Below, one piece after another: positions 12,001 to 23,789 of a stretch of 25,961 bases of DNA (positions are counted from its first letter, which is position 1; the number at the start of each line of letters is the position of its first letter). The DNA lies in the IMG/VR virus record IMGVR_UViG_3300018420_000095, positions 1-25,961 of that record; one strand, 5' to 3'. This DNA is from a virus. A program made the translations under genes and the position numbers. Below the pieces are notes generated by a model. The model ran no database searches. It was not told the origin of the DNA and saw only the letters and a program-made list of their open reading frames with translations.

Positions 12001-13137
12001 TACTTTTTTCAAGTTAGGAACTTCTTTAACTTTGTTAAGTACCATAATTGGATTTGCACCACTAGGATCAAATTGAGGTGAATTTTCATCTTCCTCGTAA
12101 CGATATTCGATACGATAAACAGAATAACGATCTGTTTTAGTTGCTATGTCTTGTGATTCAGCAAAAGGTGTATCATTATCATCATATGGTGCAGTGTCAA
12201 ATAAGTCATCTCTTTTCCAACCTGAGTCTTCACCGTCACCTGGGTTTCTATTAGTAAAGATAATTGTTCTGTTACGTAGATCAGTAACTTCATCAATACC
12301 ATCATACTTGTCTAAGAATGGTCTTACCTGTTGATTGTTAACTTCATCAAATCTTAACTCTGTAACTAAATCAACTTTAGCCACAGTGTCCATGTTTAAG
12401 AAAAAGTTTTGTTCAGTATCTAGTGGAACATTAAATTGAATAACACCATTGTCCTCACCGTTGTTAGTAACACCTAGTACTTCGCGGCTTGATTGGTTTG
12501 GCTGACCTGGAACAAGACCATTTGCGCCTGGGTTTGTTTGAATCCAAAATGGATTACCTGTTTGTTCTACATTAAATTTATAATTGCCGCCTCGAACAAC
12601 TGTGATAGTTGGGTTTGTTCCTTCTACACCACTAAGATTATAGTCAAATTCATTTCTAGTAACATCATATTCGTCACTAGTAGATATTTCAGTAGCACCT
12701 ACATCAACCGAGTCAGGACCTTGTGGTAGCCAATAATATTGTGAGAAGTTAACAAATTTATCGTAGTCTACAAACGGATCCCATGAATAGTATTCTGAAT
12801 CAAATAATCTATCATGTCTATTAACATTAGCACCTGCTACCTGTAGAGCATCCACTATGCCTGGATATGTTAAAAAGTCTTTAGTTTCAGATGAGTCTTT
12901 CTTTTTATATGTAACTGCTGGCTCTAATTGATATGATGCCCGTTCTTGGTCTTGTTCTAATATATAACTATCAAGACCTTTGACACCTAATCCAGTTCTA
13001 CGACCAACATATCCCTCAACACGTCTTAGTTGGGGACGCTGTACAATTTGATCAAGAGTGGCATTTAGAAACTTCTGATTGGTTTCTGTTTGAAATATTT
13101 CAGGTAATAGGTCTAATGTTCTAGTAAATCTTGCCAT
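1..13137 (-). CDS. Giant virion structural protein downstream of gp6, 3'-partial (at least 4,379 aa)
   Basis: I checked the frame starting at ATG 13137-13135 codon by codon to base 1 and found no stop, so the gene continues past the left edge. The start is supported by an AGGA ribosome site overlapping the gp6 stop, 6 bases upstream, and an 8-base gap to gp6. Visible modules are: an N-terminus beginning MARFTRTLDLLPEIFQ; a cupredoxin-like domain (about 175-245); beta-rich tail-fibre-like repeats; a carbohydrate-binding-like motif (1781-1802); FG-GAP repeats (about 2188-2980); an alpha-helical stretch (about 3340-3480); a tandem GxGYTxxP pair (3570-3632); a second carbohydrate-binding-like motif (3664-3685); a second cupredoxin-like domain (3852-3951); and calcium-loop-like segments near 4159 and 4320. 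In T4, gp7 (about 1,030 aa) follows gp6, so this may occupy the gp7 place as a wedge or peripheral baseplate/fibre protein. That is positional inference only. A virion structural role is likely; the exact function is unknown. Confidence 0.85.
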   Translation of the reverse strand, partial: MARFTRTLDLLPEIFQTETNQKFLNATLDQIVQRPQLRRVEGYVGRRTGLGVKGLDSYILEQDQERASYQLEPAVTYKKKDSSETKDFLTYPGIVDALQVAGANVNRHDRLFDSEYYSWDPFVDYDKFVNFSQYYWLPQGPDSVDVGATEISTSDEYDVTRNEFDYNLSGVEGTNPTITVVRGGNYKFNVEQTGNPFWIQTNPGANGLVPGQPNQSSREVLGVTNNGEDNGVIQFNVPLDTEQNFFLNMDTVAKVDLVTELRFDEVNNQQVRPFLDKYDGIDEVTDLRNRTIIFTNRNPGDGEDSGWKRDDLFDTAPYDDNDTPFAESQDIATKTDRYSVYRIEYRYEEDENSPQFDPSGANPIMVLNKVKEVPNLKKVHVQYGTKYNNQYFWKTAEGFFEEQPHITAISNTLYYQDQNDENRFGIIRVVDAVDQLTLNIQDDIIGAKEYTSPTGVKFTNGLKVQFRGGTLPESYQDKEYYVEGVGTAIKLLAVEDFKTPEDYTISDSEPFDVKGYDEAPWDSSLNAPVNKDYFTINRASEDKNPWTRSNRWFHVSVIKASAEYNKTVANLDQTARAKRPILEFNDGLRLYNFGTEGKRAIDIIDLKQKDALSNVAGKIGYNIDNFGLYDGARIIFAADLDPVVRNKIYEVKLVDPIGITEDPEQTSEKIIQLVEADDAEVNADQVVYLQSGTTLKGKSYRYTGTEWLETQQKTKINQQPLFDIFDADGYSISNTAVYPSTNFRGTKLFSYKEGTGPIDQEVGLRLSYLNINNVGDIVFDNNLYSDTFVYTINNVSTTTDVGTGFVRKYRDRTNYNLRTGWVKSSETTRQAQIFTFTDTATCICDIRHNNGDNAVVVYADNQFVLPSDYTVTRTATSTTVTFNETKELVHIHVISDQKSDIAYYEMPANLSDNSVNDSFPTVTLGTIRNHFVGLGQSHPDLVGTVLGENNLRDLGDVATYGRQIVEQSAPMQFTATFAKDSNINFFDSVEYASNEYEKFKNRLIDALTKNDYQGTAAERLDQAFQSLNRGRNPDMPFYWADTIPCGEVYEETKITITPIDDNVFDLLYTYDFTKANYQGLVVYLNDEQLLINTDYTVATDGPRLTISKTLTVGDVVKIREYESTQGSFVPPTPTKLGLFDRFKPEFFTDDSYTTSQTILQGHDGSRMIAFGDNRDEVLLEFERRIYNNIKVPLDSKIPLRWYDVIPGKFRTTDYTDAEVTELMGESFLSWVAWNKLDYKEQEYDKDNKKTWNYSTATDRVDGELLKGGWRGNLYKFYDTDVPHLRPWEMFGFSEEPTWWQRQYGPAPYTGDNLVLWDDMANGVVAHPDGDYVIEEFKRPGLQSIIPTGDEGQLEASFDVLVNNYDLKSTEKSWQVGDMGPTETAWRRSSAYPFAVMKLLAKTKPAQFFSLMADRDRYKYSTELDQYVYDSRYRLTSNNIEIYGQGTIKHSYINWCVDFARRQGIADKQAIVDTFRNTKIQLVYRAGGFTDKQYLKVFTEKTSPNSLNSSLLLPDESYEVLLYNNEPFDEVTYSSVIVQKVAGGYAVYGNSKEQLYFRIFQSIPNGNYKNVQVGNDTVRMSLDFSNKEVLIPYGYTFTNKGALVDFLVSYGQWLESKGFIFEDKENDYILNWGQMVNEFLYWNQQGWQEGAIVNLNPAANELKISKPGAVATPILGRRADEFVLNQNLQPIHKDNLVWHRLDNDLIIKTSEDDSINYIKVKFTSYEHALVFDNTSIFNDLMYDPATGARQHRLRLVGTVSDNWDGTVNAPGFIMNQPNVEVWQDNTEYSKGDIVKYKNKYYSARTRINPAELFDFADWTETEYESIKTGLIPNIALKAQQSEDYYDLSAANLESDADLLGFGLIGFRPRDYMQGLTLDDVSQTNVYKNFIGNKGSKQATDLFKSAKLDKELADYNIFENWAVRSGLYGATSNRSYVEAQLISDKLTGNPATLKITNETNGSTVNQTVRVDDIYKSSYKVNNGNILPTVDYQNVENSLPSAGFVNVEDVDIKVYELADLTAIEENINKITEGTKIWVAKDNNYSWNVYRSTLLRNEPIRIVDNLDETSTVTFNGHHTLVKDDIVVFRFFDRLTGAFRVKSTPQLNKIVIDLSLPDEITALDDLGVAFVLQSSKVTQGSDIADLSYIHSVDTGEKIWVDGTRWKVLEKFNPFNDRNNTWSKTLKAPQADSNFGQVVSQTPDGLTSLIGAPGWESGRGSVYVFGQIGTGDIQEGTQLHLGKTSSVIEKEILEYGSAIDSADGGWSIVGAPGSKDDEGLAVVIDQTTSGVIRESQFLTVPGNESGDSTTSRFSQAVAISPNSKWIYVGAPGNEKVYTYQRRDYEQQEYEFLGDGSTIVFNIDEYITVDDETQVAVNIDNIIQVPVTDFTVSGSQITFTEAPKDGARVEMVRKYTWQEEGDGVTTTYDISSIYHATSIDKFRVLIDEELLRPNYDYTFNELTQEITFTLTNKSGASIAPPANLLIQVFAESYYEYVNSISNPGVLGNGFGSSLATTRDGRQLIIGAPKGEGIDSSDNVGRVFVYDRDTERFQVKDNTTLAFTTTKDIQGQPTVLINDQVQVNDDDYLYAGTYTVAGNTVTIDDASVDLGDIVEVETNNFVLAGELHQEEAMENSQFGYAVRVCPTNCSMYVGAPQDSKTADSAGSVTRFVNRSRLYGSTMGSTANPTITVGDALRINNYYVRATGTTVESYVDDINNAGLPNVKASVVDGKIKIELINVNAAPAANKLFIYPGTGVIHEDLGIDIFPRMQTIHNPYPIVNARFGHSLDISSDALSIIIGSPNGATNLEVTLDASTTLIDAGATKIKDIQTQSGAVYTYDYLESDVDTYSNPGKFVFGQQITDSLVHPLSEFGTSVDYCNAKLLIGSPKHLTNDNVNGRIVRFNNETFTPVWQEVEKETDVVNTELINSAFIYNKTTEKVLTYLDYIDPLQGKILGAAQQNIDLTIPNDPANYNNGTENNFGMAWGNEHLGTVWWDVSTAKFINYNQSTADYRAKRIGNLFPGSSIDIYQWISSDVPPSEYEGEGTVYSTESFSTLSDVRQGGEVVVKYYYWVKGLTSVDRNSGKTLSPLTIQQYIETPKSSGIPYIAMVDTGTFALFNSQGYVLDTDSVLHIEFDKIKTDNNVHIEFELIRDNDPTQFLSDGLYRKFLDSFCGTDTAGNKVPDSNLSITDRRGVEFRPRQTMFVDRFKALENYITATNRILKQIPVTEIRSYPLLESKEEIPGKPTGAWDIELNDIAELSYQTINIDPIGRKYLVKSDENNSGLWTIYTLQSNRTLLLTRVQNYKTTRYWDLVDWYAEDYNILDKPSKEVNQYADLGTLTDAILGTVVKVRSNAQNKFEIYRLTNAGWERVGLEKGTIQIKKSVYDYDQERNGFDNEVFDAQYFDQEAVIELRQIIKSLNEEIFVDDLAKHRIDLITLMFNYVLSEQKSTDWLVKTSLIDVQHNLRELKQFDILRRDNQDFLQQYIKEVKPYRTQIKEFNLVYKGDDVYSGDATDFDLPAEFNTTLNKYISPRHVLDQEDITGEGVYQLDNVIWSTGKYSMWRQNFALSIESVTVIEGGSGYTEPPELIITGECDIPAEMTAKVSTAGEVIAVVVDYPGAGYTSTPVITLKGGNGEGAKLVAVTAPGDVRSYKTTIKFDRYQHSTNVVDWTAETAYDQDQLVRFNNKVYKVTWGDGSTLTKATFDPLDYELVDVTDLSGVDRTMGLYQPGANYPGLDLSLLVYGTEYPGVNMIGPDFSSNTGYDVGNFDTNPWDNIDFDENGKPSYSETILDAKYQGGDYSGSATTQYDVVTETKVFDLTVSQPDAAHMNDNFEQDDPWLWSWDSDFYRPTGGTLEQDPNITLQRGSTYKFRNFSYGHSLFIKTQALSEEEFLAGNTDLYKLGEDDGVINNGAKRATVEDKTPVTVTWTVPLDYPHDTVVIQHSQYGMEDTLKIAGEIITNDTSRPTDIDVVGGAFVDSYNSHAPQELVPGAVFDTLNIQVTTRPGEDYTNQGWSGQSQTKFVEFNGTDRTISFDGLIDVPFAVLAYEVSTGKQLVFEYGDTPVDTVDYTIDWNAKTITLTDGRFSTGDIIGVTAHGVGGGNQLLVEDYVAGDYLTTDGHAEIILPVDHEQIKNLEVLVNGEKITNWTLETYETYHTKLGIGNRDLTGDGAPDVDQVVSSAVGGGVADSEYNNGAISNVTGNGSDFFKREVTVNGVRIMAAGTVGGQTAVPDAFTEKVARMFELFTDPNGSGINEEYQRNLIKTLSGDAGTYHEGLPTIQRVARGAGADYSPNFLTDEGVASWNLTDLFDNTVQNDMVWYLNSTGDGYGDGDTDAQEVIEHVFHTLHMHGLPADDIKLYQFLAADWQTGDLYAAMEEAYDAGKWD
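1285..1584 (-). other. Cupredoxin-like module, copy 2 (giant protein residues about 3852-3951)
   Basis: A second copy of the same module has DPNITLQRGSTYKFRN, then YGHSLFIKT, then VTWTVPLD, then VVIQHSQYGMEDTLKI. This copy keeps a His in the first box and a His...Met pair in the last loop, as blue-copper proteins do, but the Cys ligand position is not obvious. It carries an insertion of about 30 residues relative to copy 1. Metal binding is possible but unproven. Confidence 0.5.
2077..2148 (-). other. Carbohydrate-binding-like aromatic motif, copy 2 (residues 3664-3687)
   Basis: W3664, Y3670, V3676 and Y3683 have exactly the same spacing as the W, Y, V and Y of copy 1 (6, 6 and 7 residues). 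The GD turn is replaced by DQ, and the final Ala by Val, so this copy is more degenerate than the first. Confidence 0.4.
2242..2430 (-). repeat. Tandem GxGYTxxP repeat pair (residues about 3570-3632)
   Basis: Two units, GGSGYTEPPELIITG and GAGYTSTPVITLKGG, sit exactly 40 residues apart and are joined by a strand-rich stretch (AEMTAKVS...GEVIAVVV). This GxGYT-x-P-x-(I/V) pattern is familiar from repetitive phage tail and surface proteins. I cannot assign a function. Confidence 0.55.
4170..6600 (-). repeat. FG-GAP (integrin-alpha-like) repeats inside the giant protein
   Basis: Seven clear repeats fit the pattern aromatic-Gly, about 16 residues, hydrophobic-Gly-(Ala/Ser)-Pro, then a Gly-rich turn and a V(Y/F)V(F/Y) strand. 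The aromatic and GAP/GSP glycine residues are F2189/G2205, Y2249/G2264, F2307/G2323, F2503/G2519, F2630/G2646, F2777/G2793 and F2865/G2879, so the spacing is 14 to 16 residues throughout. A weaker eighth unit (N-F-G at 2973-2975) lacks the GAP. The best unit reads LIGAPGWESGRGSVYVF. The first three units are 58-60 residues apart, as in a continuous propeller; units 3 to 6 are separated by 127-196 residues holding beta-rich inserts. In known proteins this motif forms blades of a calcium-binding beta-propeller used in adhesion; that role here is inferred. Confidence 0.8.
7726..7797 (-). other. Carbohydrate-binding-like aromatic motif, copy 1 (residues 1781-1804)
   Basis: The motif runs W1781-x5-Y1787-xxGD-x-V1793-x6-Y1800-x-A1802. 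It resembles the short W...Y..GD.V.....Y.A signature of CBM5/12 chitin-binding modules, which are common in phage and chitinase sequences. Sugar binding is an inference from this short pattern. Confidence 0.45.
12403..12615 (-). other. Cupredoxin-like module, copy 1 (giant protein residues about 175-245)
   Basis: The segment has the pattern NPTITVVRGGNYKFNV, then GNPFWIQT, then GVTNNGEDNGVIQFNVP. I recognise this order as the small cupredoxin-like beta-sandwich that recurs in marine phage structural proteins (ThxxRGxxYxFN, GHPFWIKT, GVTNNG, ITFxVP). The usual His of the GHPF box is Asn here, and the His/Met loop at the end of the domain is not evident, so copper binding is doubtful. It is probably a structural or adhesion domain. 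Confidence 0.55.
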
Positions 13138-13145
13138 TCTTTATC

Positions 13146-16100
13146 CTAGTTCTTTTTAAGAGCGCCTGCTGTTAATGCATCTATAACTTCAATGTCATTA
13201 ACTGTGGCCGCGTTAACAAAAATTTCGTTCGGTGCACAACGAACTTCGTATAAATCACCAAATGTTTTAGTTGGGTCTGTTGGTACAATAACTACTGAAC
13301 TAACAATATCACCTAGTTCTTCGTGCAGGTATGCTGATAATTCAGAGAAGTAAAATGTATCACCAAAGTCCCATTTATCAATAGTAAAGTATTCGTTCAT
13401 TGCTTGTACAACACGTGATTTAATTTCGCCTGTTGACACTACTACTCCGCTTTGTCTAATAACTTTAATTTTACCTTGTAATTCTAAACTTGCTTTTTCA
13501 CCAAATAATGGTTTAAATGTCACAGAGTTTAGAATTAGACCATCACTGGCCATTTTATAATCTTCCAATGAGTTATAAGCCAATGTTAATTCATCAATGG
13601 TGGGTTGGTTTGGTTTAGTAACTTTACCAGTTGAGTCTTTAATCCAGCTTAAATATGTTGAATAGTATGTGTTAGTTACAAGGTATAGATCAATAATATT
13701 TGTCAGTGCTGGATCAATTCTGCGTGTGTTTGGTGAATTGTGTATGTATCTAAAGAACATATCCTGTCTACCCACTGACACGCGATAATCCTTAGTTTCG
13801 GTAATCGTAAACTCACTGCCTGTAATTGATAATTGATAAAATTTCTTATCTGTATAAGCATAGAATACTTGACCTTGCAGATATTCTTTTTTCTTAAGCT
13901 CAATACTTTTTAGGTCAGCATACATCATATTGATAGTACCACTAGCAATTGGCACCCATCTTTCTAAGTTGTCAAAGTCTGTTTGTCGCTCAAAGAATAC
14001 ATATTTTGTATTTGGACTCACTGTTGGTGCTACTATGTCTTTAAAGATATCTGGATTGTCAGCAATCCCGTCTGAATCTTTATCTGAGAAACTTACTAAT
14101 ACTTTAAAGTTATCTACAAATCCGTCTGTTTCAACTTCTTGTCCAATAATATCTAGTCTAATGTCACTTGTTAAACTTTCGTTTGCGTCTGGCTTAGTAT
14201 TTGTTTTTAATACTACAACATTGTCATTGACTGTTTTACCTGTTTTAGGATCATACACTTTTGCATTTGAATCAAAAATAAATCTATTTTCCAATACTGA
14301 TGCAAAGAAGTAACTTAGGTCACGGTATTTGATTGTATAAATCTCACCATCTGTAGTAAATTGTATTAACCATGATGCGTCACGATTTAATCCGTCTTTA
14401 TTTTTAGCATAGTTAGTGTTGTATTCTGCGTTTTCATCAATGTTATCTGTTGAAATAATATACCATTCTCCAGCTTCTTCATCGTATCCAATACCAAAGT
14501 CTCGATATACTTCAATTTGATCAATCATTTGATTTTCAAATGCCACTGTTAAATCTGTAGTGAACTTAGGAATAACTTCAACTGGTACACATCCTGTAGG
14601 TAGGTATTCATTAAATGTTACAGGACCAGATCCATCTGCTAAGTTGCCTTTACCAAAATTAGTACCATCAAGATATAGATCAGTAACTGTTGCCCATATC
14701 TCTAATCTCTCATTTGGTTTAGTTGGTACTCCTGACTGTAGTCTATTATTAGCATCAAAATATTGATTGGTTGGTGGTACAAACTTAACTAGAGCACCTT
14801 CCTCAATATATTTTGTATTATTTGATGTTAAATTAATTGGTGTTGCTCCACCCGACACATCATCTTTAAAGTAGCCTGTTGTTTGATTAACAATAGCAGT
14901 TGATTGATTCCAAGAAATTCCTGATAAACTAATACGTTCATATTTGTCATAGTAGAAATGTTTAAATCCTCTAGACTTAAGAATTGGTTCTACTGTATTC
15001 TGAATAACATCAGCAATATCATTTGTGTCTACAAAACTAAATGTTTTTGTAGGATCTGTAAATGATCTGTACAACATGCCATCACTAGCAAAAGACGTAG
15101 TTGATGAGTACTTACCTGTTGGGTCTAGCAAGTCTAACTGTCTGTTAATGCCAACACCTGTTCTAGACAGTGCTTTTGATTTTAAAATACTTGTAAATCT
15201 AGTAAATGGGAAGTTGTTATAGTCTTCACCGTTGACCATTCTGTTCTGTGTGTAAAATGTCGCTGGCGCTCTTTCTTTAATTTCATTAATAGATTCTCTT
15301 GCTTTAGAATTTGAAACAGGGCTTTGTAATGATACTGTCAACGTTAATGTTTCTGTTCTACCGTTACGGCTTACATAATTAATAGGTACTTCGACATTTT
15401 GAATTTCTTCAGGATTAATAATATATTCTAACCCGTTTGATGTTCTTACATAACTTCTATAATCCCCTAATGGTATTTTAGAGAATGTACCATCGCCAAA
15501 TTGTAATTGTATTTGATCATTTGTTCTTGAGTTAGTTTGGTAAACTTCACGCTCTCCTGTACCACCGGTTTTATCAATAGCAAAAATGTTATCAACCTCT
15601 CTCCATTCTGTTAATGTATTTCCTTGTTGGTTCAGCTCAAATAACCAAACGTCATTGTTGTTGACTCCTTCAACATTAATATTAACTGTTCTGTTGGATA
15701 TACGATCTACTAGAGTAAAGTCTTGGTTTGTTAATGTTCCTTGTTTGAACATAAAGAAAAAGCCGGTGTTTTCTGAACCGTATCCTAATTTGTCATTTTT
15801 ATAAAGTATATTAAATGCTCCACCTGGCTGTGGACTTTGTTCGTATATATAAGTTTTATCTACTGATGTGCCTGACACAATTTCAAAATCCATCGACACT
15901 CCGTCAACGTCACTTTGGAAACTAGCAATAGGCATAGTGTTTGGCGTTGTATTAATCTGATATTCGTCTGTGTTAACACCAAGTATTTGTTTTGAATTAG
16001 CAGGACGACCAAAACGCTGACTGTCAATCATTGCCGCATTCATAATTGCGTTGAACTGTTCTAACCAATCTGGATTAGTTACTGAATTCCAGTTAACTGT

Positions 16101-16520
16101 AATACCTGATAGATTAAAGTTGTTGTAATCTAAGACTGATTCTGTTGTTTGAACTGCTGTGACTTTTAAGAATCCATGGCTGTTAAGATTTCGTTTAGGT
16201 TGATACCCTACAAGTTTAGCAAGTTTAACTACAGAGTCTCTACGCTCTGCTGTATCTAAAAAGTTTTCTCTGGTGTTTAAGTCGTTACGGAAAGCAAGAC
16301 CTTGGCCCATAAATGCCATTAAGTCTAGCAGTGCAATAAATTCACTTGATTCTGTATAATCGTTAAATGTTTCTGGATAGTACAGACGTAAGTAGTCAAC
16401 CATTGACTTACGTAGAGTTTCAAAGTCGTAACTTTGGAAGTCAGCCTCTTTGTAAGTGCGGTATAACTTCTTCCAATCTTCCGCCCCAAAAATAGCGGTT
16501 TGTCTTGTAGTCTTAGCCAT
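13146..16520 (-). CDS. 6: Baseplate wedge protein gp6
   Basis: gp6 is the wedge subunit whose dimers form the inner ring of the T4 baseplate, around the hub, and link neighbouring wedges. This 1,124-residue protein has the gp6/J-like signatures. The N-terminal region has SYDFETLRKSMVDYLRLYYP and a FIALLDLMAFMGQGLAFRND block. The middle has FGDGTFSKIPLGDYRSYVRT and the helical NEIKERAPATFYTQNRMV segment with GEDYNNFPF. The C-terminal domain carries FYFSELSAYLHEELGDIVSS. T4 gp6 is about 660 residues, so this form is about 1.7 times longer. The extra length is mostly in the second half and includes a DKDSDGIADNPD calcium-loop-like stretch at 813-824. The start is set by an AGG site 6-8 bases upstream. 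The gene lies 56 bases after gp25 and 8 bases before the giant gene. Confidence 0.9.
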   Translation of the reverse strand: MAKTTRQTAIFGAEDWKKLYRTYKEADFQSYDFETLRKSMVDYLRLYYPETFNDYTESSEFIALLDLMAFMGQGLAFRNDLNTRENFLDTAERRDSVVKLAKLVGYQPKRNLNSHGFLKVTAVQTTESVLDYNNFNLSGITVNWNSVTNPDWLEQFNAIMNAAMIDSQRFGRPANSKQILGVNTDEYQINTTPNTMPIASFQSDVDGVSMDFEIVSGTSVDKTYIYEQSPQPGGAFNILYKNDKLGYGSENTGFFFMFKQGTLTNQDFTLVDRISNRTVNINVEGVNNNDVWLFELNQQGNTLTEWREVDNIFAIDKTGGTGEREVYQTNSRTNDQIQLQFGDGTFSKIPLGDYRSYVRTSNGLEYIINPEEIQNVEVPINYVSRNGRTETLTLTVSLQSPVSNSKARESINEIKERAPATFYTQNRMVNGEDYNNFPFTRFTSILKSKALSRTGVGINRQLDLLDPTGKYSSTTSFASDGMLYRSFTDPTKTFSFVDTNDIADVIQNTVEPILKSRGFKHFYYDKYERISLSGISWNQSTAIVNQTTGYFKDDVSGGATPINLTSNNTKYIEEGALVKFVPPTNQYFDANNRLQSGVPTKPNERLEIWATVTDLYLDGTNFGKGNLADGSGPVTFNEYLPTGCVPVEVIPKFTTDLTVAFENQMIDQIEVYRDFGIGYDEEAGEWYIISTDNIDENAEYNTNYAKNKDGLNRDASWLIQFTTDGEIYTIKYRDLSYFFASVLENRFIFDSNAKVYDPKTGKTVNDNVVVLKTNTKPDANESLTSDIRLDIIGQEVETDGFVDNFKVLVSFSDKDSDGIADNPDIFKDIVAPTVSPNTKYVFFERQTDFDNLERWVPIASGTINMMYADLKSIELKKKEYLQGQVFYAYTDKKFYQLSITGSEFTITETKDYRVSVGRQDMFFRYIHNSPNTRRIDPALTNIIDLYLVTNTYYSTYLSWIKDSTGKVTKPNQPTIDELTLAYNSLEDYKMASDGLILNSVTFKPLFGEKASLELQGKIKVIRQSGVVVSTGEIKSRVVQAMNEYFTIDKWDFGDTFYFSELSAYLHEELGDIVSSVVIVPTDPTKTFGDLYEVRCAPNEIFVNAATVNDIEVIDALTAGALKKN

Positions 16521-16576: not shown

Positions 16577-16951
16577 TTATACGTAGTTGGCTGTGAGGTT
16601 TTCTGTATTGAGGAATAGTTTAAGCATCTGTGCTTCGCTTGACATTACAGTCTTAACTGAAATTTCACAGAGTAAACCATTGTTTTGTGTATAGAATAAT
16701 ATATTTTCAACTTTAACTCTTGGGTCACGCTCTATAGATTTACGCATTTCGTTATCAAGTTGATTTAACGTTGCGTCGTCAATTACTTCATATAGATAGT
16801 CCCACAGAGAAGTACCAACATTTGGTCTTCCTGGTATAGTACCTTGTCTAATTAAAAGATTGTTTAGTAAGTCTCTTTTAACTAATTCAAAGTCTTCCAA
16901 GCGAAACTTTTTGTTTCTATCAATTGAACTGTATCCGTAGAATCTTGCCAT
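16577..16951 (-). CDS. 25: Baseplate wedge protein gp25 (GPW/gp25 family)
   Basis: This is a 124-residue protein of the GPW/gp25 family, whose T4 member (132 residues) sits in the wedge core and joins gp6 and gp53 to the start of the sheath. Family features are the helical FELVKRDLLNNLLIRQGTIP segment followed by GRPNVGTSLWDYLYE, then a C-terminal strand-rich half with ERDPRVKVENI and CEISVKTVM. It lies 10 bases after the gp5 stop. No strong ribosome site precedes the ATG, which suggests translational coupling to gp5. Confidence 0.9.
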   Translation of the reverse strand: MARFYGYSSIDRNKKFRLEDFELVKRDLLNNLLIRQGTIPGRPNVGTSLWDYLYEVIDDATLNQLDNEMRKSIERDPRVKVENILFYTQNNGLLCEISVKTVMSSEAQMLKLFLNTENLTANYV

Positions 16952-16961
16952 AGTGTATTAT

Positions 16962-19205
16962 TTATCTTGTATGTTTTGGGGGTATTGCACGTTGGTCACT
17001 AATAATTTGACTAACATTATTGTCTAGTGTTTCTCTGTCTGTAGTACCTGCATAAGCACCCGGATTACTATAACTCTTGTTTAAACTTGTTAATTTTGTA
17101 TCAACCATATTAACCGAATATTTGCCGTTACGTGCAGTTTGTTCAATACCGTTATTAATCATAGCATTGCCACCTGTGCCTTTTGCCCAATCAGCAACAT
17201 TGTCGGCACCATATGCTGAACTTGCATTTAATATTCCACCTAAGTCTTCTGCAGACTCTGTGCCTGTTACTACACCCTTGGCTTTTAATGAACTTAAATT
17301 ATTTGATAAAATATCTTGCTGTGCCAGTGTTTGTGCATTCTTATCATTTAGGAATCCAGTTAAGTTATTAGCACTGCCTTTGCCAGTCCACACATTTGGA
17401 TTTTTAAGCACTGACTCTAACTGTGTAGATTGATTACCAAAGCCGTCTGTAACTGTTGATGCAGGATCTTTAATATATTTGCTGACTGTTCCTGGTTTCA
17501 AGTATCCTGATGATTCTAATTGTTCTGGTGAAATACCATACTTGCCAATACCTTTGTCTACAGATACATCAGTAAAGTTTTGACCAACATCGTTAGCACG
17601 TTGTGCTATTAAGCCTGTAACTTGATCTTGATCTAAACTACCGATAGATTTTGTTGCAGGTATCTGTTTAGCAAAGTCACTGGATGTAATTTCGTTAGTA
17701 GGTAACTTACCAGCAATATTTGATGCTTTACTTGCCAATGCAGGACTTAGTGTTGACGTTGCTGTTTTACCTAACTGTACAGAATTTTCAACACCTAGGT
17801 TATGGAATGGCCATGGCTCGTGACTTGGTACTCTAGTAGCAATAGTTTCTAGTTCTCCATACTCTACTTCCCAACCGTTAGCACCTAGTTTTGTGTCACT
17901 AACTTTGTTTTTCTTAAGCAACTGATTAGCTGATACAGGAACCCCACCGCCATTGTTAAGATTAATTGTACCAGCCTTGGCATCTAATCTATCTCCGCCA
18001 CTAATGCTTGATAGTTTACCTGCGTCTGTGGCCACAGTGTTATCACTGCGTAATCCAACAAATTGTTTACTGTACATTGTAGCAGACGCAATACCTGTAG
18101 CCGCCCAATCTGTTTTGGCTTCCATTCTAGTTGATAGTTCTGAATATGTTGATATGTGTCCGCCAGCATACATGTTAATGTCTTTGTCTGCGTGTAGGTT
18201 AATAGTACCCTGTGTTCTTACGTTAACTGAGTTTGTAGCAAATACATCAACAGTTCCTTCTTGACCGAACTCTAACCATGTCTGTCCGTTGGCGTGAATA
18301 ATGTGAAAACAGTTACCGTCATCACTCATAATAATCTGATGACCTTTAGCAGTTCTAATTCTTACTAGTTGATCTTTACCTTCAATATCACCATCATCAA
18401 GCACAATCGAATGACCGCCATTACGACCTACAACTTTAACATCCTCAGGTTTGAGTTCACCACTCTGTAGTTTTGATCTAATTTCTGTTTGTTCAACACC
18501 TTTAACACCTGAGTATATAGGTTTACCTGGAGTTGAGAATCCAAACACGTTACTAGGTGATTCACGCTGTGCTGTTGAAGTAATAGGACCACGTATATTG
18601 TCTTTTAATAGACCTTGTCCAAACAGTGTACCTGCTACAACATTGTGTACAGGTTTAGGTTGTTTAAAGAACTGTGGGTTTTCGTTGATTGTAGGATCTT
18701 CATTGTTAATTTCTGTTACAGGAACTTGACTAGCACCTGACACAAATGATTTACCTTCTGAGCCTACTTCGTATTCTTTTGCTGAACCAATAGCAGGTAC
18801 CATGTGATTTAAACTGTCTTCAGGAATACATCCTACATAGTAACCGTTGTTTGGGTCACCTGCTACAAAGAAACACAATACTTTGGTGCCAATGTCTGGT
18901 GGTGTAAACCACATACCGTAACTGTGTTTATTGCCTACAAAGTTTCCTGATCCTACTGCTGAACCAGAATGTTCTGTTGAGCCAAAGAAAGGTGGAAGAT
19001 AACTTACAGTTCTCCAGTTTGATTCATCTTTTTCATCAGGTCCAGCAAACTGTTCAATATAAACTTGTAGTCTAGCCGCACGTGTAGGATCAATGTTATT
19101 TTTAACAATGCCTATATAAGGACCCGATTCCGCAGGTATCTGATTACCTGCACCAAATTTATAACCCTTAGGGGTTCCTCTTCCTCTTATGTGATTCTCT
19201 GCCAT
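16962..19205 (-). CDS. 5: Baseplate hub/needle protein gp5, without a recognisable lysozyme domain
   Basis: T4 gp5 trimers form the central membrane-puncturing device: an N-terminal OB-fold, a lysozyme domain and a C-terminal beta-helix needle. This 747-residue protein has the OB-fold (about 25-137: PYIGIVKNNIDPTRAARLQV, then MWFTPPDIGTKVLCFF and NNGYYVGCIP). It also has a VgrG-like beta-helix stretch with short repeats (about 262-420, for example GTVDVFATNSVNVRTQGTIN). The 130 residues between them look like linker, and I find no lysozyme-like catalytic region. After a THEPW-like box (SHEPWPFHNLG, 461-471) comes a C-terminal extension of about 270 residues. It contains GIGKYGISPEQLESSGYLKP (552-571) and NPNVWTGKG (602-610), a module I cannot assign. 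The gene lies 6 bases after the hub-like gene. Confidence 0.85.
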   Translation of the reverse strand: MAENHIRGRGTPKGYKFGAGNQIPAESGPYIGIVKNNIDPTRAARLQVYIEQFAGPDEKDESNWRTVSYLPPFFGSTEHSGSAVGSGNFVGNKHSYGMWFTPPDIGTKVLCFFVAGDPNNGYYVGCIPEDSLNHMVPAIGSAKEYEVGSEGKSFVSGASQVPVTEINNEDPTINENPQFFKQPKPVHNVVAGTLFGQGLLKDNIRGPITSTAQRESPSNVFGFSTPGKPIYSGVKGVEQTEIRSKLQSGELKPEDVKVVGRNGGHSIVLDDGDIEGKDQLVRIRTAKGHQIIMSDDGNCFHIIHANGQTWLEFGQEGTVDVFATNSVNVRTQGTINLHADKDINMYAGGHISTYSELSTRMEAKTDWAATGIASATMYSKQFVGLRSDNTVATDAGKLSSISGGDRLDAKAGTINLNNGGGVPVSANQLLKKNKVSDTKLGANGWEVEYGELETIATRVPSHEPWPFHNLGVENSVQLGKTATSTLSPALASKASNIAGKLPTNEITSSDFAKQIPATKSIGSLDQDQVTGLIAQRANDVGQNFTDVSVDKGIGKYGISPEQLESSGYLKPGTVSKYIKDPASTVTDGFGNQSTQLESVLKNPNVWTGKGSANNLTGFLNDKNAQTLAQQDILSNNLSSLKAKGVVTGTESAEDLGGILNASSAYGADNVADWAKGTGGNAMINNGIEQTARNGKYSVNMVDTKLTSLNKSYSNPGAYAGTTDRETLDNNVSQIISDQRAIPPKHTR

Positions 19206-19211
19206 ACTTTA

Positions 19212-22142
19212 TTAATTACCTTGTGTTTCACCCCTGACTGGTAAAAAGTTAGGTGCTGTTTGGTTATTTGATACTGCTCGTTGGCCTGGTACTGAGTTAC
19301 CATTGTCATTTACTTGTCCCAGGTTAGGTCCTATAGGTCCTGCTGTGTCATATTGACCTTGTCCGTTTTGTGCTGTGCTAATTGGTGTGAAGTTAGGTGC
19401 TATGTCCGAGTCAGACGTTATTGCCGCATCACCCGGAACTTTATTTCCTTTAACACTTACCGGAGTAAAGTCTGGAGCATAATTGTTAGCACCATAGGTA
19501 ACTGCTTTGTATCCAGGCATGTTCATACCGCCTCTAGTAGGTCCTACAAATGGTTGTTCTTCTTGTTCTCTCTGAACAGGTTCTTGAGTTGCTGTTTCAG
19601 GAAATTCTCTTAGTATTCCTCGTAGACTCTGTGTCATTACACCTTTTTTAAAATTACTAGTAACATGTGTAAGTTTGTAAATTAATCCTTTGGCTGTTTT
19701 AGTACCGTCAGTGAATAGTGGATCTTTGAGATCAGCACTGCCATCTTCTTTATAATCTTCCATGGTTCTAAATTTAACTTCGACTAAAACTTCTTGGCTG
19801 TCATAATTAATTGAGCCATCTGGCATAAACGGTTCAAATGTATCACCACTGGTGTATAGTACATCATTCTGTTGAACATAGTCTGGATCACCAATGATAT
19901 CCATATTAAACGTAGCAAAGTCTACAGTTGAATAAATCACATCAGCGGCCTGTTCTGCAGGACTAGCAGTGTCTCCTGGTTGTCCTAGTCCACTGGCTCC
20001 AGACTTATTAACGTATGCTTTAGATGTAATACGTTGACTGTCTTCTGTTGATTCTTGATCTTCTTGTGGTATTCTACCATCCATGGCAACAAAAAATGTT
20101 GTATTTAGATCTTGTTCGTAGTTAAGTACTTCTGTGTTTTCTCCAGTAAACCAATAGCTATAACTTTTGTGTACTCCTCTAAATGGGGCTTTAGGAAAAA
20201 ATGGAGAGTAAGTATCTGCTATCTGTTTAGGTGATATAATATATTCTATTTCGTAGGCATAGTCACCACGCTTGTCGTCCCAGGCAATAGGAAGAACTCT
20301 AACACCAATGTGATACCATTGTAAGAACTTATTCTGTGACGGATTAGGTTTTACTTTTTTTGTTTTTGGATCAATGATATGTGTTTGCTGTTTTGAAATA
20401 TATTCGCTAGACCTAATCATGATGTCAAGAAACTGATGTATCTGTTGACCAGCTGGCACAGCATAAATCTGTCTTGACTTATCATAACTTGTACTATTTA
20501 AAATACTATTGGCCGCGGCCTGTGCCGACGCAGACATAGGTTTAGATTTTTTAACTGTTAACAGTGCTTCACTGGAAATAATTTTTTGTTTTCCTATGTC
20601 ACCTTTAAATGTAACTTTATATTTGTCAGCATATTTGTAGCCTTGTTCTCTAGCCAACTTTTTCTGCTGTTCATTTAGCTCTTCTACAATACCTTTGTTT
20701 TGCTGAGTTGTACCAGCTTGGCTTTTAAGTATACCAGGAGTAACTGTTGTTTCAGTTGTACCCCATGGTGATGTTGCTGTAGTTTGACTAGTAGACGTTG
20801 CTGGCAGTTGTTCAACATTACTAGTAGCATTAAATAGATCACCTAGAGTTTGTCCTAGTAGTTCAACATTAAAAGGAATGGTAGCACGTTTTGAACTCAG
20901 TGCTACTTCGTGATTAATTGCCACAGCTTGGCATTCATAAGTGATAGCACCTGTAGCAACTCTTGTTCTAATATTTGAAAACACAAATGGAATAAATTTA
21001 CTTAATCTATCATCATCTGCTTCGCTCAATTGTTTACCGTTTTCATCAAACCCTTTATATCTAATGACCAAGAGATAATGTTGTTTTGAAAACTCTTTCA
21101 TTCCTGCTGACGCACATAGTTCTTTTAGTTTTTTAAAAAACGTGTAGCCCATTGGCTCGATGATGTTAAAGTTCATTCTTGTAACATTATGTGGACTAGA
21201 ATTTGCTTCAGCAAATAGTCCTTGTACTTCTAGATCATCTATATACAGGTCCGGAAATATAACATCTTCATTAGCAGAATTACCACCACTCTGTAATATC
21301 TTTTTGAGACCTTGTGTTGTTTTATTTTGTGTGACTAATAATTGTTTATACTGTTCTGGTGTCTGTAGATATAATTCAATATTATAAGTTAACTGTGCGT
21401 ACTTGTTTGTTGGATTTTCTGAAGCATTAAAATTCTCGTAGAATGCTGATGCTGTTTTTATTCCACCGTTAGCTGATGTTATAAAAGTGTTATCTTGTAT
21501 ATCTTGTGCGTCATCTGCAGATACAGGTTGGCCAATTAATATGTCCGGAGTTACAGGCGCATCAGCAAATGTTCCGTATGGTGATGTTGGAATACGATCT
21601 GCGTTTGACTGAACAACAGGCTCTCCTGCTGAGTTTGTTAAATGACTTGGATAAGGTGTTTGTGTTCCTGCCCCATCAGCACGTGCCTGTGCATCATTGT
21701 CTACTATTGCACCCGATGATGTGGCGCCTTGTGTTTCGCCTCTAACAGGTGTAAAGTCAGGTGCTGTGTTTTCATCTGTTCCTGTAACAGCAGTGGTTCC
21801 ACCTACTCCGTCTTGTTCAACTACTGGAGTAAAGTCTGGACCTATCTGTTGATTAATCTGATTAACTGTTTGAAAACTTTGTTGTCGTCTTTGTTGTATT
21901 AATTCGTTATTAGTTGTTATTTGCCCGTCATATTCGCTAGGGTTTTGGCTTTTGTAAACAGTGGCTTCGTATCTAGCATTGGCACCTTCTTGACTAGCAA
22001 TACGCACATCATTTTTTGCATCATATAATTGTTGCTTACTTGAATTTGAATTACTTAAACGAGTCTGTGCATCAGCATTGGCACGATCCATGCCCTGTAT
22101 TGCTCCTGACTGCCTCTGTAATACTTCAGTTATTGTAGGCAT
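19212..22142 (-). CDS. Large baseplate hub-like structural protein (possible gp27 analogue) with terminal PxFxPV repeats
   Basis: This 976-residue protein is encoded directly upstream of gp5, where contractile systems often encode the tube-like hub partner (gp27 in T4). Its N-terminus (about 19-100) is Gln/Ala/Asn-rich and probably coiled coil. Two repeat units follow (101-139), then a Pro-rich linker, a structured region (about 245-440), a second structured region (about 530-870) with PAGQQIHQFLDIMIRSSEYI, and four repeat units at the C-terminus (872-975). The strand-rich core with EYIISPKQIADTYSPFFP would suit a tail-tube-like hub. At 976 residues it is about 2.5 times T4 gp27 (about 390), and I see no diagnostic gp27 motif, so that assignment is mainly positional. 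The ribosome site AGGA sits about 8 bases before ATG 22142, overlapping the end of gp53. Confidence 0.6.
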   Translation of the reverse strand: MPTITEVLQRQSGAIQGMDRANADAQTRLSNSNSSKQQLYDAKNDVRIASQEGANARYEATVYKSQNPSEYDGQITTNNELIQQRRQQSFQTVNQINQQIGPDFTPVVEQDGVGGTTAVTGTDENTAPDFTPVRGETQGATSSGAIVDNDAQARADGAGTQTPYPSHLTNSAGEPVVQSNADRIPTSPYGTFADAPVTPDILIGQPVSADDAQDIQDNTFITSANGGIKTASAFYENFNASENPTNKYAQLTYNIELYLQTPEQYKQLLVTQNKTTQGLKKILQSGGNSANEDVIFPDLYIDDLEVQGLFAEANSSPHNVTRMNFNIIEPMGYTFFKKLKELCASAGMKEFSKQHYLLVIRYKGFDENGKQLSEADDDRLSKFIPFVFSNIRTRVATGAITYECQAVAINHEVALSSKRATIPFNVELLGQTLGDLFNATSNVEQLPATSTSQTTATSPWGTTETTVTPGILKSQAGTTQQNKGIVEELNEQQKKLAREQGYKYADKYKVTFKGDIGKQKIISSEALLTVKKSKPMSASAQAAANSILNSTSYDKSRQIYAVPAGQQIHQFLDIMIRSSEYISKQQTHIIDPKTKKVKPNPSQNKFLQWYHIGVRVLPIAWDDKRGDYAYEIEYIISPKQIADTYSPFFPKAPFRGVHKSYSYWFTGENTEVLNYEQDLNTTFFVAMDGRIPQEDQESTEDSQRITSKAYVNKSGASGLGQPGDTASPAEQAADVIYSTVDFATFNMDIIGDPDYVQQNDVLYTSGDTFEPFMPDGSINYDSQEVLVEVKFRTMEDYKEDGSADLKDPLFTDGTKTAKGLIYKLTHVTSNFKKGVMTQSLRGILREFPETATQEPVQREQEEQPFVGPTRGGMNMPGYKAVTYGANNYAPDFTPVSVKGNKVPGDAAITSDSDIAPNFTPISTAQNGQGQYDTAGPIGPNLGQVNDNGNSVPGQRAVSNNQTAPNFLPVRGETQGN
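19215..19529 (-). repeat. C-terminal PG..AI...APxFxPV repeat array in the hub-like protein
   Basis: Four units lie at residues about 872-975: MPGYKAVT...APDFTPV, VPGDAAITSDSDIAPNFTPI, a degenerate IGPNLGQV unit, and VPGQRAVS...APNFLPV. The key aromatic positions are F892, F918, L941 (substituted) and F966, a period of 23-26 residues. The last unit ends VRGETQG, identical to the end of the N-terminal array of the same protein. Confidence 0.8.
21726..21848 (-). repeat. N-terminal PxFTPV repeat pair in the hub-like protein
   Basis: Two units, IGPDFTPVVEQDG and TAPDFTPVRGETQG, occupy residues 100-139 with aromatic positions F104 and F130, 26 residues apart. The DNA coding for the second unit (21726-21767) matches that of the last C-terminal unit (19218-19259) at 34 of 42 bases, counted by hand, which points to duplication or gene conversion. 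Confidence 0.8.
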
Positions 22143-22143
22143 A

Positions 22144-22446
22144 CTAGATTCCTAGTGCTTGTTTAAGTGTTGATTGTTTAGGTAAGTAAATTTTTAATCC
22201 GACTTTAAAATCCCAGATTGGATCTTTAATTGAGTTTGGATTACGCTGTGCAAATACCCACCATAGACCAGGATCACCATACAAGTCATTGGCTAATAAA
22301 TCTGGTCGATGTTGATATGTTTGATTAATTTCAATAACCTGATCATCTACCTGTTTAGGTATAGGTCTATCTTTCATTATATCTAGATAGCCTGCAGTTT
22401 TTGCTGTTTCAAAATAAGGTGATGTCTGTGTGTATTTTGTAGCCAT
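22144..22446 (-). CDS. 53: Baseplate wedge protein gp53, short form
   Basis: gp53 is the LysM-like wedge protein that locks neighbouring T4 wedges together around the hub. The 100-residue product has the family pattern: YQHRPDLLANDLYGDPGLWW, then VFAQRNPNSIKDP and KVGLKIYLP at the C-terminus. T4 gp53 is about 196 residues, so this is roughly the conserved half only. Two in-frame ATGs exist (22452 and 22446). I chose 22446 because the AGAGGA site at 22455-22460 is 8 bases away from it, against only 2 from the first ATG. It also gives a TAATG stop-start overlap with the upstream gene. The stop lies 1 base before the hub-like gene. Confidence 0.85.
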   Translation of the reverse strand: MATKYTQTSPYFETAKTAGYLDIMKDRPIPKQVDDQVIEINQTYQHRPDLLANDLYGDPGLWWVFAQRNPNSIKDPIWDFKVGLKIYLPKQSTLKQALGI

Positions 22447-23789
22447 TACCATTGTCCTCTTGTTGATAGTCCAGCACCGTCGGCATAATTTTTAAGACTA
22501 AACTGTTTACTTTGTTCTGCTCTTGTTACTACTGGTAATAGAATTAAACTAACTTCAATTTTAGTTGGAACGTATGTTGATCCTGCTCTAGCCAAATTAG
22601 TTCCTTCGTTGGCCGCTTGAAATTGCTGTTCAGCACCAACGTCAGCACCAATGCCAAATAATCTACCAATACGACTAGCAATACCAAATATACCAAAGTT
22701 ACCCGATCCACCACTTAAATTTGCTCTAGTTGACTGAGCTTTGATACTTCCTACTCCGCCTTCTGATGTTCTAATGTAGTCAACATTATCTGGTAAAGAA
22801 TAGTTAAATTGGCTTACTACCGCTTTGTGAAAGTTAAACTGATTAGGCCCAAGACCTGTTACACTGACTAATGGTGGCGGCGTTCCTTTGTTAGCATCTT
22901 GTCCGTAAAACATTTTAGTTGCTGAACGGAAGAAGTGTATCATAGCCATCATATAGTCTGCTTCGTCTGTTGATTGTGCTGTAAATGTAGCATTAATCTG
23001 TACATCACTTACTTCTGAACTTTGATAGAAGTATGTTGGATAGTTTGAATGTGTTGGTGATATTTTGTCATAGTTAGCACGATAGTTAACCATTACGTTT
23101 GGTGTATATGGAAATACAACACCATCTGTTTTTAATAATGGCGATAATATACTGTAAGCATTTCCGTCTCTGTATAATACATCACTGCCTGGCATAAGAC
23201 CAATTCTTAAACGCCAATCTTCTGTTCCAGCCTTGGCTGATACTGTAACTGGACCAGTTTCAATTTTTTGTACATCTTGAGGAACATATCCACCACCGCC
23301 AGGTGTTTCTGGGCCTGTGCCTGTTGGGTTACTAAAATTTGGTCCAATTTGATCGCCTTCTGTGATAGCGGCATCACCACCAATTGTTCCTGTGCCTCTG
23401 GTTTCGCCTGATCCAAATTGAGGACCTATCTGTTCTCCAGGACCAGTAATGGCACGTTCACCTGGTACTTGACTGCCTGTACCAACACCTGTAAAATCTG
23501 GTTGAGGAGTAGCACCGGTATAGGTAATAGCCGAATCGTTAGTTTCGATAGGAGCAAAGTTAGGTGCGTTCTGAGGGGCAGGACTATTATAATTTACATT
23601 ATTACTGCCCTGTCCTAGACCTCTGTCTACCTGAAAGTTAGGTGCTAGTTGTGACTCATTACGCAACATTGAGTATTCTTCAGCAGTAAAACTTGTACCC
23701 GCAGGTTGGTTAGTAGGTAAGTCTTGTTCTACACCTACTTGTATTGCTGGAGTAACTAACTTTCTATTATTAATTGGATCTTGTGCCAT
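22446..23789 (-). CDS. Tail-tube-like baseplate protein (possible gp48/tube-cap analogue) with N-terminal PxFxPV repeats
   Basis: This 447-residue protein is the first gene of the leftward late operon. Residues 1-47 are a short unique leader, 48-167 a Pro/Gly-rich repeat array, and 170-447 the folded part. The folded part contains SAKAGTEDWRLRIGLMPGSD, VFPYTPNVMVNYRANYDKIS, SNYPTYFYQSS and DEADYMMAMIHFFRSATKMF. That order (TP-strand, NYP-Y-Y, then a helix ending FxRxxxKMFxG) looks like tail-tube or tube-junction proteins, and I associate it with gp48/gp54-type components of marine T4-like phages. The assignment is tentative because T4 gp48 lacks such a repeat region. The start has AGAGGA at 23796-23801, 6 bases upstream, and a late-type box about 22 bases upstream. 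Confidence 0.65.
   Translation of the reverse strand: MAQDPINNRKLVTPAIQVGVEQDLPTNQPAGTSFTAEEYSMLRNESQLAPNFQVDRGLGQGSNNVNYNSPAPQNAPNFAPIETNDSAITYTGATPQPDFTGVGTGSQVPGERAITGPGEQIGPQFGSGETRGTGTIGGDAAITEGDQIGPNFSNPTGTGPETPGGGGYVPQDVQKIETGPVTVSAKAGTEDWRLRIGLMPGSDVLYRDGNAYSILSPLLKTDGVVFPYTPNVMVNYRANYDKISPTHSNYPTYFYQSSEVSDVQINATFTAQSTDEADYMMAMIHFFRSATKMFYGQDANKGTPPPLVSVTGLGPNQFNFHKAVVSQFNYSLPDNVDYIRTSEGGVGSIKAQSTRANLSGGSGNFGIFGIASRIGRLFGIGADVGAEQQFQAANEGTNLARAGSTYVPTKIEVSLILLPVVTRAEQSKQFSLKNYADGAGLSTRGQW
22455..22460 (-). promoter_or_regulatory. Ribosome binding site deciding the gp53 start
   Basis: AGAGGA on the minus strand lies 8 bases upstream of ATG 22446 and 2 bases upstream of ATG 22452. The spacing favours the inner ATG, which overlaps the upstream stop codon as TAATG and suggests coupled translation. 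Confidence 0.6.
23289..23648 (-). repeat. PG..AI...(A/G)PxFxPV repeat array in the tail-tube-like protein
   Basis: Five units span residues about 48-167: LAPNFQVDRGLGQG, APNFAPIETNDSAI, PDFTGVGTGSQVPGERAIT, IGPQFGSGETRGTGTIGGD and IGPNFSNPTGTGPETPGG. The aromatic positions are F52, F78, F99, F125 and F152, spaced 26, 21, 26 and 27. The consensus matches the arrays of the hub-like protein two genes downstream. Confidence 0.8.

Follow-up and report, generated by a model that had tools for sequence, protein, structure and literature searches.

The LysM (gp53-type) protein of the cyanophage A-1(L) inserts one of its tails into the baseplate hub and pairs another with the tube initiator, and the tape measure has its C-terminus on the spike, within the hub (PMC10966104). 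Among solved structures this phage (8kea) provides the fold closest to the hub described here (8kea_A, VIA Z 13.6, followed by Mu gp44, 1wru, Z 11.7, and T4 gp27, 1k28_D, Z 11.6) and one of the best for our tube initiator (Z 10.3). By fold and position, gp27, gp48 and gp54 of T4 correspond to these proteins in role, as the hub trimer and the tube-initiator hexamers, although no PDB chain, these three included, matched our hub or tube initiator at the level of sequence. Jumbo phages of the RaK2/PA5oct/121Q type have the same gene order (phrog_12050, phrog_7145, phrog_11190, phrog_13211, gp55 and gp47 being encoded on the opposite strand), and their tube-initiator and hub cores are homologous to those of the window, by which we mean the whole 25,961-nucleotide stretch of viral DNA that was analysed. 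They differ from it in that their tube proteins (211-243 aa) are devoid of an arm, their hubs have 607-749 aa and the repeats described below are absent. The tube proteins of Atu_ph07 and Phosso do have an arm, but it is unrelated to that of the window and has no repeats. A long glycine/serine-rich stretch is found in the spike-like protein of Phosso (L017:9916-13050).

The minus strand of the window carries, as read from the ORFs, the baseplate operon of a contractile tail (Table 1), and the plus strand encodes the late sigma factor gp55 and an SbcD-like gp47. One PG...IGPDFS stretch, which may be due to chance, is located near residue 3748 of the giant ORF at the window edge. The protein that a preliminary description of this DNA had called tail-tube-like is identified by sequence and model as a tail-tube initiator of the gp54/gp48 type rather than as the tube polymer. 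AlphaFold models of the tube initiator and the hub were built on 49 and 37 family members, respectively. Residues 191-343 plus 404-447 of the former make up a predicted core that matches the tube initiators of PVC/AFP and A-1(L) (VIA Z 10.3-11.2 over ~150 residues), Foldseek points to the same fold (6j0n_b, E=8.4e-6; 8kea_P, 9e-5), and the gene order around it is that of PA5oct, SCTP-2 and 121Q. The second protein is, on the same grounds, identified as a gp27-type hub, with a core also similar in fold to VgrG. For the gp53-like protein between them, the profile match to T4 gp53 (5hx2, E=0.0016) is limited to the central part of the latter. Neither of the whole proteins matches a Pfam family.

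Table 1. Predicted features of the baseplate operon in the window (residue numbers are those of the respective protein)
Feature	Position	Strand	Evidence
Tail-tube initiator (gp54/gp48-type, phrog_12050), 447 aa	22446..23789	-	PHROG E=5.5e-38; AlphaFold core; gene order
N-terminal disordered arm of tube initiator (residues 1-190)	23220..23789	-	pLDDT
Five repeat units in tube arm (residues 49-165)	23295..23645	-	anchors 49 APNF, 75 APNF, 96 QPDF, 122 GPQF, 149 GPNF
gp53-like baseplate wedge protein, about 100 aa, without repeat	22144..22452	-	phrog_7145 E=5e-27
Baseplate hub (gp27/VgrG-type, phrog_11190), 976 aa	19212..22142	-	PHROG E=4e-13; fold match
Hub N-terminal three-helix bundle (residues 1-105)	21828..22142	-	pLDDT mostly 83-97; helices 2-30, 36-66, 73-100
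Two repeat units, hub N-terminal linker (residues 98-137)	21732..21851	-	anchors 101 GPDF, 127 APDF
Second shared module SPYGT..APVTPDIL, hub N-linker (residues 187-202)	21537..21584	-	matches tube arm of relative L029, E=2e-4
Stretch SPWGTTETTVTPGILK resembling SPYGT..APVTPDIL module, low-confidence hub core loop (residues 458-473)	20724..20771	-	read from sequence
Hub folded core (residues 221-850)	19593..21482	-	AlphaFold; VIA matches span 247-848
Hub C-terminal disordered arm (residues 851-976), four repeat units	19215..19592	-	pLDDT 27-34; anchors 889 APDF, 915 APNF, 938 GPNL, 963 APNF
Best-matching full unit APDFTPVSVKGNKVPGDAAIT (hub residues 889-909)	19416..19478	-	17/21 residues (81%) identical to L144 hub C-terminal peptide
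OB/spike gene, after hub gene	16962-19205	-	phrog_13211 E=2e-33
gp25	16577-16951	-	
gp6	13146-16520	-	
Giant ORF, 4379 aa, open at window edge	1-13137	-	

Apart from the three-helix bundle of the hub, the regions outside the cores are predicted to be largely disordered, with pLDDT values mostly of 27-53 in the arms of both proteins. For the greater part of the tube arm they stay at 38-53, with a rise to 63 in residues 31-40, and the low-confidence segments of the hub are residues 110-217, where values drop to about 30-35 from residue 110 on, and 851-976, besides a core loop (442-481, pLDDT 33-40). The length of the tube arm is highly variable across the family, in which the core motif is located anywhere from residue 56 to residue 915. 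Hub architecture varies too. Some 18 lineages split the gp27-like hub into two consecutive ORFs of about 300-530 and 540-630 aa (L040, L045, L047, L051, L061, L062, L068, L069, L074, L075, L078, L080, L084, L087, L089, L094, L095, L101), and a group of hubs typified by L120 (e.g., L120:554-3400) has an N-terminal Phage_lysozyme2 domain (PF18013, E=7e-32) where the window hub has the helical bundle.

Translation of the two genes shows eleven anchors of the P[DN]F type. The tube initiator has five and the hub two plus four, exactly at the protein ends where the preliminary description had placed its repeats; gp53, encoded between both genes, has none, as it had also stated. The anchors are separated by 21-27 residues in the tube initiator, 26 at the N-terminal end of the hub and 23-26 at its C-terminal end. 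The count of eleven units is valid for this half of the repeat only. The other half, VPGxxA[IV][TS], is clear in six of the eleven units (at tube residues 108 and 136 and hub residues 113, 875, 902 and 951) and degenerate in the remaining ones, which leaves about six whole units. The motif that emerges comprises about 21 residues, A-P-[ND]-F-T-P-[IV]-S-[VI]-x-G-N-x-V-P-G-x-x-A-[IV]-[TSQ], and will be referred to as the PG motif. A unit HMM whose seed included one hub unit of the window and none of its tube units recovered the window hub (E=3e-18) and tube initiator (6e-8) among 9,850 ORFs. A consensus of three units gave a single sub-threshold chance match in Pfam (E=0.18), and the PG motif was found in no PDB sequence. 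Isolated phage records searched by sequence did not contain it either, a weak negative since tblastn filters low complexity, and no description of such repeats was found in a literature search from which subscription papers were mostly missing. A low-complexity artefact was ruled out by shuffles, ORF-wide controls and the selection analysis.

The repeats are kept, with turnover, in four close relatives (L002, L003, L005 and L022) at 63-77% overall tube identity to the window. In L005 the N-terminal units of the hub are absent and the C-terminal ones degraded, and in L022 the tube initiator bears three units in tandem and the hub 0. When the window is compared with L002 and L003, amino-acid identity is 68-84% in the repeat regions and 72-83% in the cores, the sole region clearly below its core being the tube arm against L003 (68 versus 82%). 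At fourfold sites of identical residues, 39-59% of positions are identical in the repeats and 51-63% in the cores. Since amino-acid identity is near or equal to that of the cores while fourfold sites have diverged, the repeats are maintained by purifying selection. Units within one gene differ in their codons, indicating that they are not recent copies of each other, and recent tandem duplication was ruled out as a full explanation on this account.

In order to see where else the motif occurs, we have scanned 2.9 million viral contigs with two degenerate DNA patterns. The pattern VPGxxA[IV][TS]-x5-[AG]P[DN]F matched 24 contigs and P[DN]FxP[IV]-x3-GNx[VI]PG matched 34, about 45 in all given the overlap, and a spacer one residue longer yielded one contig only. 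Run at its one spacing against 257 Gb of genomes from bacteria and archaea, the first of these patterns had 0 exact matches (few are expected by chance, by our own estimate), which rules out a general bacterial or host protein motif of this form. The ORFs behind the new contigs, checked singly, were all hub, tube initiator or gp48 (tube cap), the hubs being recognised by a hub-core HMM or as hub C-terminal fragments. The gp48 carriers belong to phrog_230 and come from a group of T4-like phages akin to HTVC008M and cyanophages; a scan of viral contigs for gp48 relatives gave 0 carriers beyond those known, and gp48, gp53, gp54, the hub and gp5 of HTVC008M, read by eye, do not contain the motif. 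Among the 9,850 ORFs, from 237 loci, the unit HMM matched 48 hub, 19 tube and 5 gp48 ORFs (classes assigned with HMMs made here, and with PHROGs for representatives) plus 2 fragments that resemble truncated hub C-ends. Many unrelated low-complexity proteins could have been expected among the matches if the profile were unspecific, and there were none. The preliminary description had named such matches, and a lack of conservation in close relatives, as outcomes that would refute it, and neither was observed. Most loci had been picked by tube or hub homology, so that this control covers flanking genes, and it is the pattern scans that are free of this bias. Every carrier comes from a metagenomic fragment. 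Longer records, fragments as well, were searched up to 72 kb with the PG motif and up to 331 kb with another module, DPYYGL, and no genes outside hub/tube-like long ORFs, assigned by length and place, were found to be involved.

The hubs from the second scan bear the motif mostly in single copy and ending at the last or next-to-last residue, a position that the pattern does not impose. Examples are ...VAPNFTPVSVRGNQVPGDRAIT in L136, ...IVPNFTPISIKGNQVPGQAAVTG in L137 and ...SPNFTPISVRGNQVPGQNAVQ in L141, all three followed by the stop codon, and in the gp48 of L150 the motif is the N-terminus itself, MAEAPDFTPISIAGNRVPGERAI.... L120-type hubs have an extra unit within the core loop that corresponds to residues 442-481 of the window hub. 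The terminal 21-mer is kept across hubs with 31-59% core identity, although its own identity is inflated by the search pattern, which fixes 10 of the 21 positions (the free positions are 27-73% identical), and it is therefore not put forward as better conserved than the core. Strong conservation nonetheless extends to positions that the pattern leaves free: across 11 peptides of different clades and proteins (hubs, a tube, gp48), S8 is present in 11/11, A19 in 10/11, T5 in 9/11 and A1 in 8/11. In the hub tree the carriers fall into two groups with well-supported branches between them, and three changes are needed, of which at least two are forced. The motif thus recurs in different contexts, i.e., in two hub clades and in the gp48 of a separate PHROG (phrog_230). 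Judged by sequence, the window harbours an expanded array of a motif that is mostly single-copy at the hub end elsewhere. The multivalency suggested earlier is therefore restricted to the window's clade, most of the carriers found having one copy, and the repeats do not always occur on both adjacent proteins: L022 has them only on the tube, and the L120 and L136 types only on the hub. The L022 hub and the L120-type tubes without units indicate that the motif is dispensable on either protein, and its presence on both is not obligatory. Another conserved peptide, [TPS]PQx(I/M)x(K/R)(D/E)x, terminates some of the hubs that lack the PG motif, in 14 cases exactly at the stop (L036, L040, L041, L052, L054, L056, L060, L063, L069, L075, L081, L082, L087, L088).

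The PG motif is not the only sequence that the two arms have in common. In a set of 76 non-redundant family members, at least eight further modules, unrelated to it, occur in both tube and hub arms. For example, DPYYGL..ADPTDPYIRARLGIPQ is found in the tube of L091 and L055 and in the hub of L033 and L085, GTGFGDD..FTTDSxGN..LYRAAEV in tube and hub of L089, and FVQSSTGLNVLPED in tube and hub of both L094 and L087. Among about 70 non-redundant genomes, 33 tube-arm/hub-arm pairs were obtained at E<1e-3, and 12 local shuffles gave 0 each. Eight pairs came from the same genome against 0.46 expected, and without the window's PG clade 5 against 0.24; neither figure was reached in 20,000 permutations. 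The arm modules had no genuine match in other flanking ORFs, where two strong matches are likely truncated hub N-termini and five weak ones derive from the odd start extension of a single hub ORF. Neither modules nor motif leak into gp53, gp5, gp25, gp6 or thousands of other sampled ORFs. In L140 the tube initiator and the hub are homologous over their N-terminal 50 or so residues, with a local score of 274 against 72 at most after shuffling, so copying from gene to gene does happen, and recombination between adjacent genes could explain part of the module sharing; the ORFs concerned are L140:4400-7267 and L140:7579-9012. WADNGPGTGGW is common to the L141 tube arm and the L150 gp48 (137 versus 60).

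These observations taken together suggest that the repeat is a short linear docking motif at the hub/tube-initiator junction, binding a common phage-encoded partner, most likely the gp53/inner-wedge ring, a reading to which we would give a probability of about 0.55. The motif would sit on the disordered arms of two stacked rings at the base of the tail, a hub trimer and a tube-initiator hexamer (stoichiometries taken from T4 and A-1(L)), and each unit would bind a pocket on the partner, which as the gp53/inner-wedge ring would surround both. Docking may recruit or lock the two rings during baseplate assembly, and the amplification into arrays (11 anchors) in the window's clade would provide avidity. 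The docking to a common partner proposed in the preliminary description fits the predicted disorder of the arms, the purifying selection, the confinement to hub, tube initiator and gp48 and the recurrence at extreme termini; the partner is the conjectural part of it. The alternative proposed with it, a flexible tether linking hub and tube, is not required in the form of direct contacts of repeat with repeat, since units are on only one protein in the L022, L120 and L136 types. Peptide tails crossing this junction have a precedent in A-1(L) that supports docking (PMC10966104). There, the bridging tails belong to the LysM protein gp16, whereas in the window the arms are on the hub and the tube initiator and bear a repeated motif; they could supply the hub/tube connections from the side opposite to the LysM tails. 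As in short linear motifs on disordered arms in general, the sequences are short, conserved by selection, located in segments predicted to be disordered, recurrent in different contexts and exchangeable between carriers. The difference is that here one vocabulary is used on two adjacent rings and has been amplified into arrays in one clade.

As for the identity of the partner, gp53 or the inner wedge is our guess. Unusual residues common to PG carriers are found in 4/98 columns of gp53, 3/122 of gp25, 1/231 of the tube and 1/419 of gp5, but gp53 residues D77 and I79 are also present in most or all aligned RaK2-like gp53 proteins without the motif, and hence such residues do not single out gp53.

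The same distribution could be read in other ways. The motif may be a tag for assembly only, to which the tape measure, or a hub chaperone nucleating the hub and the tube initiator, binds transiently, and it would then have no function once the virion is mature. Its terminal placement would suit a chaperone tag, it is found on both rings from which tube and tape measure start, and the tape-measure C-terminus of A-1(L) lies in the appropriate place, on the spike inside the hub (PMC10966104); yet arms of up to several hundred residues are more than a tag needs, and we consider this unlikely. That the arms are passive spacers, i.e., flexible linkers without a ligand whose similarity stems from tandem duplication and recombination between neighbouring genes, seems similarly unlikely. 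The strong turnover in arm length and copy number, the same-genome enrichment of common modules and the similar N-termini of the L140 proteins would all be natural for such linkers. They would hardly account for purifying selection on the repeat sequence, for the persistence of the terminal 21-mer across divergent hubs, for its recurrence in the gp48 of another phage group or for the lack of leakage into neighbouring genes and the other ORFs sampled.

Finally, the peptides might contact a host factor of the envelope or the cytoplasm at injection and have spread among phages with common hosts. The same peptide in distant phage groups does suggest horizontal exchange, and the tail-lysozyme domain of L120-type hubs would be compatible with a role facing the host. 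In known structures, tube-initiator and gp48 rings lie inside the baseplate. This is a poor place for host contact and the motif is not found in other sampled ORFs, so that a host-facing function appears very improbable.

Going beyond the docking reading, the hub and tube initiator of this uncultivated phage family might draw on a common stock of exchangeable docking peptides (at least nine types including PG), each with its own site on the same partner, and the choice of type might act as an assembly specificity code that separates the parts of co-infecting relatives. We regard this as possible but doubtful. What is new here is the selection on the repeats, their restricted distribution, the terminal single-copy form and the sharing of other modules between tube and hub. 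As a practical consequence, the 21-residue signature offers an annotation handle for hub and gp48 ends in metagenomes. Cryo-EM maps usually fail to show the disordered arms of baseplate proteins, and annotation ignores them. In many uncultivated phages such arms appear to carry conserved and specific peptides, only on the rings where the tail tube starts, turning the organisation of the hub/tube-initiator junction, including its three-to-six-fold mismatch, into a testable question of peptide and partner.
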